From: Methanoplanus limicola DSM 2279
GTDB taxonomy: Archaea > Halobacteriota > Methanomicrobia > Methanomicrobiales > Methanomicrobiaceae
DNA length: 64,000 bases
NCBI RefSeq assembly: GCF_000243255.1
Contig: NZ_CM001436.1
Coordinates: 842,077-906,076, forward strand
Reading direction: 5' to 3'
The notes under the pieces are model-generated. The model was not told the DNA's origin, made no database searches, and worked only from the letters and a program-made list of their open reading frames with translations. Every line of letters begins with the position of its first letter. The first letter of the stretch is position 1. A program made the position numbers and the translations under genes. This document shows, in pieces, positions 4,481 through 64,000 of the stretch.

Positions 4481-4825
4481 ATTCAGGACTACAGATAAAG
4501 GGGACATATATTCAAAAAAACACATAGTAAATCAGAAAATATTATCCGGCAGCCACCATGACACTGACATTATTATCCGGCTTTCCGGGAATAAAATTTT
4601 CCGGATAATACCGGCACAATCAAATCAGGCATCCAAAACAGAAAAATAAACAATTATTGTCCTCTTTTTTAAGCAGACTCTGACGCTGCAATATATATAA
4701 AAGACCAAAAACCCGCATAGGGATCAGGTCAATATACCTTCAGATAAATAGCATAACAGAAAGAATAATAATGACAAAGGGATTAGACATGGCACAACAG
4801 AAAATGTAGCAGATAAATCAGATAA
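4481..4825. other. Intergenic region with hairpin and promoter
   Basis: A perfect 10-bp inverted repeat (TATTATCCGG at 4571-4580, CCGGATAATA at 4601-4610) probably ends the regulator transcript; a further copy of ATTATCCGG lies near 4539. A TATA box (AATATATATAAAAG) near 4689-4702 precedes the kinase gene by about 125 bp, so its mRNA should have a long leader. The leader contains a 12-codon frame (ATG at 4771, stop at 4807) that could be an upstream ORF. Confidence 0.5.
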
Positions 4826-6580
4826 ATGATTAAAAGCGATTTTTTACAGCGAAAAACCGGCATATACCAGTACAGAGCCTTAATAGTAACAGCACTTACA
4901 ATATCAGCACTAATACTGACAGGTATCTGCCTTTATCTTAAGATAGAGATACTTTTCCCGGAACTCTATCTGATACCAATCTCACTGACTGCACTCTGGT
5001 TTCCAAAAAAAGGATTTTATTTTGCAGCACTACTCTCCATTCTGCTGATATTCATATCTGCCATCGTTTCCGAAGATGCATATATAATCTCCATCACAAT
5101 CATAAAAAGCATAATATACATTGGCATATCTGCAATGATTGCCACAATTTCACTTGCAATCAGGGAAGACTCAGTCAAATATTCACACCTTTTTGAAAGT
5201 TCAGGTGCAGCTACAGCAATTACTGACAATTCAATGAATATTATTCACTGCAACTGGGATTTCTCAAAACTTACAGGTTACAGTTTAAAAGAACTGAGAA
5301 GAATCAGCTGGAATGACCTGCTTGATGATGAGTCAGTGAGAATCATAAATAAACTGATCAAAGAAAATGATGACGATGAAGAGAACATTTCGTCCGGATT
5401 TACTGAATTCACATCCGGAAAAGGAATAGAACTTAAGCTTAATGCAGCAAAAAGCAAAAAATACTACGTTATTGCAAAAGCCAGGTACATATCAGAACTA
5501 AATATTATACTCATATCATTCATCGATATAACAGATAAAAAAAGGACTGAAAAAATCCTTAAAAGAAGCAAGAACAGATTTCAGAAGTTATTCCAGCAGT
5601 CAACAGATGCAATAATAATCCACTCGGCACAAGGAAAAATATATGATGCCAATAAACAGGCTTTAATGCTGTTTAATGCTGGATATGACGAAATAAAAAA
5701 TACGAATTTTGCGGACCTGATAACATTTGAGGAAAAGATAATACCGGAAAGGATAATGGCCGATATGACCTTAAAAGGATATTATAACACTGAAATCACA
5801 ATTAAAAGAGAGAATGCACCAAGACTGGTCGCTGATTTAAGATCAAGTCTTGTCGATCCCGACACCAAAGTAATCCAGACGATATTAAGAGACATTACAT
5901 CCAGAAAAAAGAATGAAGAAGCCTTAAATGTAGCATCAAAAAAACTCAGCATACTTGCATCAATTACAAGGCACGACATTATAAACCAGATAATGGTCGC
6001 ACTTGCAAATCTTGAATTTGCAAAAGAAGACTGCAAAGAGAGAAACATCGAGAAATATCTGAATAATACTGAAAAAGCAGTCCAGATAATTCAGAAACAG
6101 ATAGAGTTCAGCAGAGACTACCAGGATATGGGTTGTAAACCACCTAAGTGGCAGGACCTGGGAGAAATCATTAAAAATTGCACCAGGACGGTCTCATTAA
6201 ATCCCGGAGTTAAAATAAATTCTGAAATTAATGGCGTGCATATATTCGCCGATCCCATGCTAGAGAAGATATTTGCAAATTTAATCGGCAACTCCATTAT
6301 GCATGCAGAAGGACTCTCAGAGATAAGCCTGAGTCTTACCGCAGATGAAGATTCATATATAATATTATACCGCGACAATGGCCCCGGAATTCCGGAAGAC
6401 AAAAAAGAATTAATATTTAAGGCAGGGTACGGCAGCAATCAGGGATATGGCCTGTACCTCATAAGGGAGATACTCTCTATAACCGGAATTGAGATAAGAG
6501 AGACAGGAACTTTTGGTGAGGGGGTAATATTTGAATTAAAAGTGCCCCTGGAAGATATAAGATTTGATACTAACCATTAA
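4826..6580 (+). CDS. Membrane-bound PAS-PAS sensor histidine kinase
   Basis: This 584-residue kinase opens with a hydrophobic sensor region (residues 18-115, about four to five membrane helices). PAS domain 1 covers about 125-240 (SSGAATAITDNSMNIIHCNWDFSKLTGYS) and PAS 2 about 250-365 (FQQSTDAIIIHSAQGKIYDANKQALMLF). The phospho-acceptor region carries RHDIINQ with His383, and the ATPase domain has the N-box NLIGNSIMHA, G1 YRDNGPGIP and a GYGLYL lid. The RHDxxNQ H-box is shared with the kinases at 9245 and 33311, which marks a methanogen kinase subfamily. No receiver domain or dedicated response regulator is adjacent. A 3' hairpin (6597-6621) follows. Confidence 0.9.
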   Translation: MIKSDFLQRKTGIYQYRALIVTALTISALILTGICLYLKIEILFPELYLIPISLTALWFPKKGFYFAALLSILLIFISAIVSEDAYIISITIIKSIIYIGISAMIATISLAIREDSVKYSHLFESSGAATAITDNSMNIIHCNWDFSKLTGYSLKELRRISWNDLLDDESVRIINKLIKENDDDEENISSGFTEFTSGKGIELKLNAAKSKKYYVIAKARYISELNIILISFIDITDKKRTEKILKRSKNRFQKLFQQSTDAIIIHSAQGKIYDANKQALMLFNAGYDEIKNTNFADLITFEEKIIPERIMADMTLKGYYNTEITIKRENAPRLVADLRSSLVDPDTKVIQTILRDITSRKKNEEALNVASKKLSILASITRHDIINQIMVALANLEFAKEDCKERNIEKYLNNTEKAVQIIQKQIEFSRDYQDMGCKPPKWQDLGEIIKNCTRTVSLNPGVKINSEINGVHIFADPMLEKIFANLIGNSIMHAEGLSEISLSLTADEDSYIILYRDNGPGIPEDKKELIFKAGYGSNQGYGLYLIREILSITGIEIRETGTFGEGVIFELKVPLEDIRFDTNH

Positions 6581-6596
6581 CTTCAATGCCGGAGAG

Positions 6597-6621
6597 GAAC
6601 TGCATTCACAATCAGCAGTTC
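6597..6621 (+). terminator. Hairpin downstream of the histidine kinase
   Basis: GAACTGC (6597-6603) and GCAGTTC (6615-6621) form a perfect 7-bp stem with an 11-nt loop, 16 bp after the kinase stop codon. No strong T-run follows, so this is a candidate 3' end structure only. Confidence 0.35.
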
Positions 6622-6635
6622 TGAAATATATTATA

Positions 6636-6684
6636 AATCTCCGTTAAACTCCGATTATCCCAAAACATTATGCAGTGCAATATA
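6636..6684 (+). repeat. Right-end fragment of the dispersed two-hairpin element (copy C)
   Basis: The sequence matches the right third of the copy at 63616-63747: AATCTCCG...ACTCCGATTATCCC...ACATTATGCAGTGCAATATA against AATCTCC...ACTCCGATCATCCC...ACATTATGCAGTGCACTATA. The left half is absent. It lies between the kinase and the zinc-ribbon gene. Confidence 0.7.
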
Positions 6685-6736
6685 ATATCAGAATAAAACA
6701 GTTCAATAAATAAGCATTCAAATACAAAATAACTGC

Positions 6737-21026: not shown

Positions 21027-21402
21027 CTGCTATAATTCACCTGCTGATAAACTTTATTATTATTCAACGTATGTAGCATTAAGTTTTAGTAACAGGATAA
21101 TCATCAGAGAAGATCTGCATTAACAAAGTCACTCATGAACCAGCCGGTTCACAGATGATGAATAAAACTGTGCACTGTTTCATAGGAGAACAGTCATAAA
21201 AATCCGGATAATATAGTATAATCCAGAACTTTCCGGAATGGTCCGGAAAATTTGCTTATTACTATGAAGTGCGGCATAAGTGCATAAGTGCATGATTTGG
21301 AATAATCTCCGCCACACCCCGGTTATTCCAAAACATTATGCAGAATCTATAAAAAATACAGAGGAGAAATTCGGATGAAATTCCGGAACAAAAATATTAA
21401 CC
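21027..21402. other. Intergenic region carrying repeat copy A
   Basis: Between the prf1 start and the hydrolase stop, 376 bp contain the prf1 promoter and the full copy of the dispersed element at 21212-21351. No coding frame is credible here. Confidence 0.6.
21212..21351 (+). repeat. Dispersed two-hairpin element, full copy A
   Basis: This 140-bp element runs from TATAGTATAATC to AGAATCTATA and matches the copy at 63616-63747 over its whole length apart from an 8-bp internal duplication (CATAAGTG twice). Hairpin 1 is TTTCCGGA (21230-21237) with TCCGGAAA (21242-21249). Hairpin 2 is TTTGGAATAA (21296-21305) with TTATTCCAAA (21323-21332). The ends form imperfect terminal inverted repeats. No open frame is present. 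Confidence 0.85.
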
Positions 21403-49061: not shown

Positions 49062-49099
49062 GAAGAAGCACATAGAAGAAGCACATCCGGATTGTAAAT

Positions 49100-49233
49100 T
49101 ATAGATTATAAACATATATTCAGGAATAACCGGAACGAAATGGAGATTATTTCTAAGCGTGCATTCTAATCTCACTACATAGTCTTTAAGCAAACTTTCC
49201 GGATAATTTCTGAAAGTCTTGTATTAGACCATA
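49100..49233 (-). repeat. Dispersed two-hairpin element, full copy E (diverged)
   Basis: Read on the minus strand from 49233 the copy runs TATGGTCTAATACAAGACTTTC ... to ATAATCTATA and aligns throughout with the copy at 21212-21351, with more substitutions. Hairpin 1 is ACTTTC with GAAAGT (arms broken by one mismatch), and hairpin 2 keeps AATAATCTCC...CGGTTATTCC. It lies between rimI and phr. Confidence 0.75.
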
Positions 49234-49279: not shown

Positions 49280-50710
49280 ATGGGGAGTAAAGAATACGGA
49301 ATCTCGGTTCACATCTTCAGGCGTGATCTCCGCCTTGATGACAATACTGCGCTGCTGAATGCACTTGAAAGATCAGAAAGGGTAATTCCGGTTTATATCG
49401 CCGAACCGGAATTCAGTATAAATAACCAAAATATTCCGGAGGTCAGGCATTCCTTCATCATCAGATCTCTGAATGAACTTGACCTGGAACTGAAAGAGAA
49501 AGAAAGCCGGCTTTATTATTTCAGTGACGGAACAGAAAAAGCACTGGAATACCTGATAAAAGAGACCGGTGCTGAAGCATTTTTTGCAAACCGCGATTAT
49601 TCACCATATGCACAAAAAAGAGATATAAAAGCAGCTGAAATTCTGAACTCTGCAGGAATTACTGATTACTGCCTGACACCCGATCTTATGCTGAATGAAC
49701 CCGGCAGGGTACTCAGAAAAGACGGTGGTACATACAGCGTATTCACCCCATACTTCAGACGTGCAGAGGAGCATAAGGTAAGAGTGCCCCTGAAATGCAG
49801 ATATGACAATTTTTACAGGAGTTATGATATAAATCCAGACAAAAATATTATTCCGGGCGGCAGCAATACCAAAATAGAAGTTAAATACGGCACAGAGGGA
49901 CTCAAAACCGGTTCTGAAAGAAATCACCTGAAGGGAGGAAGGGCTGAGGCACTTAATCTCCTCGGTAAACTTGCAGAACTGAAAGACTATAGCAATACAA
50001 GAAACATTCCGTCTGTAAAAGGCACAACATATCTCTCAGCCCATTTAAAATTCGGCACAGTCTCTGTCCGTGAGGTTTACAATGCAATAGCCGGCACATT
50101 GGGCTATGACTCTGAACTGTTGAGGCAGCTTTACTGGCGGGATTTTTATATATATACAGCTTTTCACAACCCACATATATTCACCGGACCATTCCACAGG
50201 AAATATGAGAAACTCCCATGGAATAACGATGAGAAACTCTTTGAAAAATGGTGCACAGGAAATACCGGATTTCCGATTGTTGACGCAGGCATGCGCGAAC
50301 TGAACTCAACCGGATATATGCACAACAGGGTCAGAATGATAACTGCATCATTTCTGGTTAAGGACCTGCACATAAACTGGATGCGGGGTGAGAGATATTT
50401 CGCATCAAAACTTCTCGACTATGACCCCTGCATCAACAACGGGAACTGGCAGTGGTCAGCATCAACAGGATCTGACTCGCAGCCGTGGTTTCGGATATTC
50501 AACCCATGGCTTCAGCAGAAAAAATATGATCCTGACTGCATATACATTAAAAGATGGGTTACGGAACTGTCAGATATACCACCGTCCCGGATCCATAATC
50601 CTGACCTCATGAATAAACATGAAATTAAAGGATACCCTCATCCGGTTGCTGACCACAGGGAAGAATCACAGCTCAGCAGAAAAATATTTTCGGAGACCAA
50701 CAGAAAATAG
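49280..50710 (+). CDS. phr: Class I DNA photolyase (deoxyribodipyrimidine photolyase)
   Basis: The 476-residue flavoprotein repairs UV-induced pyrimidine dimers using light. The N-terminal antenna domain starts SVHIFRRDLRLDDNTALLNAL; the FAD-binding C-terminal domain includes LRQLYWRDFYIYTAFHNPH, FPIVDAGMRELNSTGYMHNRVRMITASFLVKDLHINW, and the family-specific DYDPCINNGNWQWSASTGSDSQPWFRIFNPW. These match class I CPD photolyases. The gene is bracketed by two copies of the dispersed element in the same orientation (49100-49233 and 50737-50814), which raises the idea of transfer as a unit. Confidence 0.95.
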   Translation: MGSKEYGISVHIFRRDLRLDDNTALLNALERSERVIPVYIAEPEFSINNQNIPEVRHSFIIRSLNELDLELKEKESRLYYFSDGTEKALEYLIKETGAEAFFANRDYSPYAQKRDIKAAEILNSAGITDYCLTPDLMLNEPGRVLRKDGGTYSVFTPYFRRAEEHKVRVPLKCRYDNFYRSYDINPDKNIIPGGSNTKIEVKYGTEGLKTGSERNHLKGGRAEALNLLGKLAELKDYSNTRNIPSVKGTTYLSAHLKFGTVSVREVYNAIAGTLGYDSELLRQLYWRDFYIYTAFHNPHIFTGPFHRKYEKLPWNNDEKLFEKWCTGNTGFPIVDAGMRELNSTGYMHNRVRMITASFLVKDLHINWMRGERYFASKLLDYDPCINNGNWQWSASTGSDSQPWFRIFNPWLQQKKYDPDCIYIKRWVTELSDIPPSRIHNPDLMNKHEIKGYPHPVADHREESQLSRKIFSETNRK

Positions 50711-50736
50711 ACTGTCTGAATGACAAAAATACAATA

Positions 50737-50814
50737 TATGCCCGTATTATGATGCAATTCATAGTAATAAGCAAACTTCCCGGACCATTACGGGAAGTTC
50801 TGCATTATACCATA
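50737..50814 (-). repeat. Dispersed two-hairpin element, left-half copy D
   Basis: Read on the minus strand from 50814: TATGGTATAATGCAGAACTTCCCG...CTTATTACTATGAATTGCATC, matching the left half of the copy at 63616-63747. Hairpin 1 is perfect here as ACTTCCCG/CGGGAAGT, a compensatory variant of ACTTTCCG/CGGAAAGT. The right half and hairpin 2 are missing. It begins 27 bp after the phr stop codon. Confidence 0.8.
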
Positions 50815-50933
50815 TTGCTGTAAAAGGCAGATCAATATTATCACCGGAACTAATCAGCTTCATTTGAAATCCGGCACACCACATAATAAAGATATATATA
50901 TAGTCAGGACATAATCAGACATTAGTGATAATT

Positions 50934-63455: not shown

Positions 63456-64000
63456 TAACTATAAAAACTCTATTTTTCCCTCAGATTAACTAAATATAAA
63501 CAGCAGACAGAGTAATAATCCCGGATCAGACCAACCGGAGAGATAATGCTTAGAATTTCTTAAAATATCCGGAAAAACGGTTTTTCAGTGCAATATGAAG
63601 ATTGAACGCTGACAGTATAGTATATTGCAGAACTTTCCGGAATGGTCAGGAAAGTATGCTTATTACTATGAAGTGCGGTATAAGGGCATGATCTGGAATA
63701 ATCTCCTTTACACTCCGATCATCCCAGACATTATGCAGTGCACTATAAATCTTTCCGGTTTAAGAAAATGATAACAGATGTAAAAAAAATCGTCGTAACT
63801 GATCCACTTTCCGTCAGAAAGAGAAACTAAAATATATTATAATTAAAAACAGTTAATTAGAGTATTAGTAAGGTTAAGAAAACAAAAATATATTCTCGCA
63901 GAAAAATAAGGAACAATAAGAAAATAACCCACAGCCAAAAATACCAGTACATATGTCAGAATTTCATGCATGATAATAATAATTCCGGGGAGAATAGCAA
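63456..64000. other. Intergenic region at the right end, with repeat copy B
   Basis: The 545 bp after ribB are AT-rich and contain the full copy of the dispersed element at 63616-63747. The rest shows A/T tracts and a TATA-like AAAATATATTATAATTAAA near 63831-63849. No coding frame of note was found; a following gene may begin beyond the window. Confidence 0.6.
63616..63747 (+). repeat. Dispersed two-hairpin element, full copy B
   Basis: The 132-bp copy runs TATAGTATATTGCAG ... GCAGTGCACTATA. It differs from copy A (21212-21351) by an 8-bp deletion of the internal duplication and scattered substitutions. Hairpin 1 is ACTTTCC/GGAAAGT and hairpin 2 is TCTGGAATAAT (63692-63702) with ATCATCCCAGA (63718-63728). 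Left end and reverse-complemented right end agree over about 31 positions (roughly 22 matches). Confidence 0.85.

Follow-up and report, generated by a model that had tools for sequence, protein, structure and literature searches.

An IS630-Type MITE Family with a Covarying Two-Hairpin Fold in Methanoplanus limicola and Other Methanomicrobiales

A repeat of about 134 nt without coding capacity, dispersed in multiple copies through the genome of Methanoplanus limicola DSM 2279, is very probably an IS630-type (Tc1/mariner-like) MITE family that was mobilised in trans by an IS630 transposase. Its insertions duplicate a TA dinucleotide and have empty counterparts in a collinear sister genome; its ends match those of IS630 transposons from related genomes, with which it has a common target preference; and the family is present in several genera, while the host genome carries no IS630 transposase. 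Mobilisation would have taken place in trans, by a partner presumably lost from this lineage. What is claimed here is not a new kind of element but a firmly supported IS630-type MITE family whose two-arm fold is unusual and covaries.

Copies in the Window and in the Genome

The window, the 64-kb stretch of the M. limicola chromosome that was analysed, holds five copies (Table 1). All five are present where an initial annotation had placed them, and none overlaps a plausible gene, as it had also claimed. Some of its boundaries have shifted. The copy given as 21212-21351 is full but ends one base later, and is 141 nt long because of an 8-nt internal duplication; the full copy given as 63616-63747 extends to the final A of CTATAA; and the full minus-strand copy given as 49100-49233 starts one base earlier. 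The presumed left-half copy at 50737-50814 does have an intact left hairpin, but the covariance model reaches weakly across the right half, and it is thus a decayed full copy and not a clean half. The presumed right-end copy at 6636-6684 does contain the right end, but starts with a left-end remnant, TATATTATAA, at 6627.

Table 1. Copies of the element and parts of the 63616 copy in the 64-kb window.
Feature	Window position	Strand	Basis
Full copy, subfamily A, 133 nt	63616..63748	+	BLAST query; covariance model match G000:905692-905824; alignment A2
TA duplications of the 63616 copy	63616-63617 and 63746-63747	+	
Left hairpin (arm 1) of the 63616 copy	63617..63669	+	Fold of near-consensus copy L002 mapped on A2; covariation
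Right hairpin (arm 2) of the 63616 copy, ends GCAC before TATAA	63672..63744	+	L002 fold mapped on A2; covariation
Full copy, subfamily A, with 8-nt internal duplication; right terminal repeat partly decayed	21212..21352	+	BLAST, alignment
Full copy, subfamily B (AAGACTATGTAGTG type)	49099..49233	-	Alignment; covariance model, 94 bits
Copy retaining the left hairpin intact (50737-50815), right half decayed	50685..50815	-	BLAST; covariance model, 63 bits over 50685-50814
Internally deleted copy, about 59 nt, left-end remnant and right end	6627..6685	+	BLAST; not in sister genome G001

The 6627 copy adjoins a segment of about 2.1 kb (window 4564-6690) that is missing in the sister genome (G001). 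The 584-aa gene in this segment was considered as a transposase and ruled out, since it encodes a PAS histidine kinase. At the site of the 50737 copy (window 50706-50848), G001 has about 7.2 kb of extra sequence (1328727-1335944), which suggests an insertion hotspot.

A search for further copies outside the window, proposed as a check in the initial annotation, was successful. A BLAST search of the 3.20-Mb host genome (G000) with the 63616 copy gave 13 near-full-length copies (E <1e-26) and many partial ones; for full copies the E-values lie between about 1e-28 and 1e-52, a level at which chance matches are not expected. A covariance model built from 17 copies identified about 33 copies in G000; in G001 it found at least 7. 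The copies are intergenic, and their orientation relative to the flanking genes is mixed. A separate stretch of about 47 nt (ATTATTTGGCCTGGGTTTTGGCCCGGATCTTTT) recurs within 8 kb of G000:C1 (1097505, 1101060, 1103384 and 1105402) and at 1562891 in G001; it is possibly a terminator-like or other repeat.

The family is not confined to these two genomes. Genus g36 (family f5) has 12 genomes in which the covariance model matched, and weaker matches came from G132 and G021; as scoring was limited to 14 candidates per genome, the copy numbers there are lower bounds. Of 40 loci examined, 39 hold copies, and those from g36 are 123-136 nt long.

Anatomy and Subfamilies

The typical copy in M. limicola is 133-136 nt long, with the left end TATAGTATAATGCAGAACTTTCC and the right end ...AACATTATGCAGTGCACTATAA. 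The terminal inverted repeat, described initially as extending over about 31 positions, is real though imperfect, with 20 of the 31 positions matching in the consensus and a core of TATAGTnnnnTGCA. Subfamily A predominates in G000, and subfamily B, with its AAGACTATGTAGTG centre and the right end ...GGTTCTGCACTATAA, occurs in both G000 and G001. A truncated subfamily B copy is found at G000 2344390 and at G001 781304 with flanks common to both, and from the sequence this looks like the same site in the two species.

Shorter forms also exist. Four copies (L015, L016, L018 and L020) have a single hairpin and are exactly 68 nt long; their junctions fall, one base apart, in an imperfect repeat on either side of hairpin 2 (TATGAAGTGC / TATGCAGTGC), which is consistent with repeated deletion across that hairpin. 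A copy with only the right hairpin, at G001:C1:1796709 (L032), apparently has TA on both sides (the orthologous site in G000 is L216).

How did a two-hairpin unit arise? A direct tandem origin from a 67-nt unit was rejected, as the two halves are only weakly alike (9 of 500 shuffles scored as high). At its centre, subfamily B has ACTA-TG-TAGT, a single base different from ACTA-TA-TAGT, and this sequence suggests that the unit may have arisen by fusion of two one-hairpin TA elements.

Target Duplication and Empty Sites

Genome G001 is collinear with the window and mostly 83-88% identical to it, and empty sites were sought by joining the flanks of a copy without the element and looking for the product in the other genome. 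Two base-exact sites and one near-exact site were found. The copy at G000 459408 corresponds in G001 to GGGACAAA[TA]ATTCTTAC, the filled site being ...[TA]TAGT...ACTA[TA]ATTC, and the copy at G001 2856426 corresponds in G000 to GTTGCAG[TA]AACC; the near-exact site, for the copy at G000 1044274, fits GGAAATAA[TA]AAT. The 6636 copy is likewise missing from G001, at a less exact site, and at most other sites intergenic divergence precluded a base-exact match. Comparison of empty with filled sites shows that the element duplicates the 2-bp TA, as [TA]TAGT...ACTA[TA]. The proposal that ends in TA would fit insertion of the Tc1/mariner-IS630 kind is borne out by this duplication. A search for longer target duplications, over lengths of 2-9 bp and different offsets between the left and right junctions, singled out none of them (the best of many had a z of 2.4). 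An A follows the right TA in 30 of 30 copies and an A stands at position -2 in 24 of 30, giving aAT-TA-A as the preferred insertion context.

Some copies are inserted in only one of the species, and in one case a gene is disrupted. The G001 copy at 2856426-2856559 (L031) interrupts a 73-aa hicB-like antitoxin gene that is intact in G000 (248328-248508, L159), where it is followed by a hicA-like gene; both names are putative, read from the sequence. This hicB-hicA-like pair is 96% identical between the two genomes over the insertion site, compared with the usual 83-88%.

Relationship to IS630 Transposons

Which transposase could have moved the element? In G000 there is no match to PF13358 (DDE_3, IS630) and no IS630 protein match, so the partner is either absent or lost. 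The sister genome has an IS630 with the ends TATAGTCCCTCACC / TATAGTCCAGTACC and part of another, and IS630s were found in 25 of the 232 genomes of the class. Where they could be located, the ends of these transposons start with TATAGT; this was itself the search criterion, and the comparisons count only positions beyond it. One subgroup (L137, L138, L140, L141 and L143, from genomes G132, G131, G203, G128 and G208, respectively) has left ends like TATAGTATGTTGCAATACTTTC, TATAGT(A/G)TGTTGCAATACTTTC, and right ends like TATAGTTAGTTGCATAACATTTT. Compared left to left and right to right, the ends of the element match those of this subgroup at 21-24 of 36 positions, against 16-19 when the ends are swapped; other IS630 subgroups score 12-17. 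For the best IS630s the figures are 23-24 of 36 in the same orientation and 17-19 swapped, and for three elements none of 50,000 shuffles scored as high. The right end of subfamily B resembles a second type of IS630 end (TATAGTTAAGAACC). Most of these IS630s also lie in AT-TA-A, the same flanks as those of the element.

Three of the genomes with the element, G203, G208 and G132, also carry IS630s of the matching type. In neither genus member (G000 or G001) was a sequence closely resembling the subgroup's right end found. The search for a transposase with the same terminal repeats, suggested in the initial annotation, gave IS630s with matching ends in related Methanomicrobiales but none in the host genome. 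In G208, a copy at C6:146529-146651 (L221) has a left end similar to the local IS630's right end (GGCATAACATTTTGAAT), which suggests an end exchange between MITE and IS.

Transposons of other kinds also lie close to copies. A DDE_5 transposase is located between two copies in G001 (L045). A DDE_Tnp_1 IS between close copies (L101:5190-6128) was rejected as the partner, being inserted into a copy and having ends of its own, AGTACTTTAAAC. This IS as a whole (G000:C1:2542887-2544761, L101:4888-6762), with the ends AGTACTTTAAAC / GTTTAAAGTACT, lies inside a subfamily B copy, where GATTA may have been duplicated. An IS200/IS605 element with tnpA and tnpB (G000:C1:610946-612640, L065:9447-11140) and the end hairpins CCCACGACTAAAG...CGTGGG is situated some 60-80 bp away from a 68-nt copy; four full-length Y1 matches in G000 score equally, and its tnpA is among them.

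The initial reading of the repeat as a MITE is supported by the copy number, the empty sites, the TA duplication and the IS630 end match. In the mechanism that we propose, a non-coding unit of about 134 nt, TAGT...ACTA, inserts into TA, preferably in aAT-TA-A, and duplicates it, an IS630 transposase that recognises the unequal left and right ends having mobilised it in trans. Hairpins, one at each end, would be kept in replicating lineages by compensated changes, and individual inserted copies would mostly decay. Against this explanation stand the absence of an IS630 transposase, and hence of a partner, from the host genome; the match to the best IS630 ends, which covers only about two thirds of positions; and the strong covariation of internal hairpins, which a DDE transposase does not need.

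The Two-Hairpin Fold and Its Alternative Explanations

The element folds into two side-by-side hairpins, at approximately nt 2-54 and 57-130, with a z of about -6.9 as DNA and of -6 to -6.4 as RNA on either strand. The two hairpins that had been noticed initially are therefore borne out, and they also covary across genera, beyond what the first reading could see. In alignment A4, which was not fitted to the structure, 81.8% of cells pair, compared with 34-42% when the partners are slid. Both sides have changed in 28 of the 46 pairs, with 113 such cells against 43 expected, and none of 500 shuffles, which ignore relatedness, was as high by any measure. A model-fitted alignment gave compensated changes in 38 of 46 pairs, although that alignment is biased towards the structure and contains four antisense matches as well as a short copy. 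The slid controls and the varied pair types within the same stem (such as GCA/TGC, GCC/GGC and GCG/CGC) argue that the signal is real. In subfamily A alone, the youngest, stems change about half as fast as loops (0.057 against 0.104), and 50 of the 65 changed pairs are broken while 3 are compensated. Since most stem changes in the youngest subfamily break a pair, the constraint appears to bear chiefly on the mobile lineage; most simply read, the fold is kept up in the lineages that replicate, and inserted copies decay.

Such covariation, together with the stable fold and the slower change of stems in subfamily A, would speak for a structured RNA or regulatory family (a terminator, a riboswitch-like element or an sRNA) that served the host at each site and was duplicated by chance or recombination. 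That explanation is very improbable in view of the exact, TA-duplicating insertions with their empty sites, the mixed orientation relative to flanking genes, the partly species-specific insertions with one disrupted gene, and the prevalence of broken over compensated pairs in subfamily A. Moreover, when the window and five distant copies were compared with Rfam, the sole match above the gathering score was a neighbouring tRNA, and none fell within a copy. Two terminal hairpins are also reminiscent of REP/BIME-like or PATE-like elements moved by the single-strand (Y1) transposase of IS200/IS605, and Y1 transposases are present in both G000 and G001. An origin of this kind was rejected as highly improbable: the end hairpins of the Y1 elements in G000 are different (CCCACGACTAAAGCACGTGGG), the ends of the repeat form an inverted repeat that matches IS630 in orientation, and its insertions show the TA duplication. 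IS200/IS605 insertions are not known to make a target duplication.

Within the preferred reading, that of an IS630-type MITE, what keeps the hairpins? Fold maintenance in replicating lineages and decay of inserted copies together make it most likely that the fold serves the production or movement of new copies, or is upheld by palindrome repair, and does not provide a host function at each insertion. Template switching, or quasi-palindrome correction, is a known mutational process in DNA palindromes and might produce covariation without structural selection, which is compatible with the MITE reading. This has a real chance of being correct, though one short of probable; in its favour, most compensated changes separate subfamilies from one another, and the single copies mostly decay, but the process must recur in master copies while preserving the total length (123-136 nt in the g36 copies examined) and must also preserve several unpaired positions in arm 2. 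Alternatively, propagation may depend on the two-hairpin fold itself, in the form of single-stranded DNA or of an RNA that a transposition or host factor reads, a possibility that we hold tentatively and consider rather unlikely.

Known Repeat Families and Significance

The Correia/NEMIS elements of Neisseria have the ends TATAG.../...CTATA, as does the element described here. They are also similar in their TA termini, in having full and internally shorter forms, and in inserting occasionally into genes (PMC2229807). They differ in that they have a 24-bp terminal repeat and a stem formed by end-to-end pairing, in contrast to two side-by-side hairpins. RUP of Streptococcus pneumoniae, a 107-bp repeat for which mobilisation by IS630-Spn1 has been proposed (PMC2229807), is likewise non-coding, within the range of about 100-140 bp, targeted to TA, provided with terminal repeats that match an IS630, and dispersed between genes. 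However, RUP has its IS630 partner in the same species, whereas the partner is missing from the host genome here, and PMC2229807 reports no separate covarying arms for RUP, of which this element has two. The CIR repeats of Caulobacter and Brucella consist of two long hairpin arms and a linker, a form called unlike other bacterial repeat elements (PMC2229807). CIR lacks shown target duplications or IS partners, unlike the present element with its TA duplications and IS630 ends. By these comparisons, RUP is the nearest parallel in function, whereas in two-arm shape it is CIR.

A relative may already have been listed. Table 4 of Kamoun et al. 2013 (PMC3852290) includes a 136-bp MITE from M. hungatei in 6 copies. 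Compared by description only, it is similar in size and low copy number and comes from a methanogen of the same order, but it differs in its listed 15-bp repeats, 4-bp duplication and unknown family. It may be a representative in g36 of the family described here.

The present data document an IS630-type MITE family in the Methanomicrobiales, with its target duplication, a cross-genus match to IS630 ends and a host without the partner. The element can also serve as a marker for recent changes between the genomes of close species. Why mini-transposons keep hairpins is a question that is hard to approach when copies are too similar, and the many diverged subfamilies make this family a good case for it. 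If the fold is indeed required for propagation, there would be a class of IS630-type mini-elements with a selected nucleic-acid structure besides their ends.
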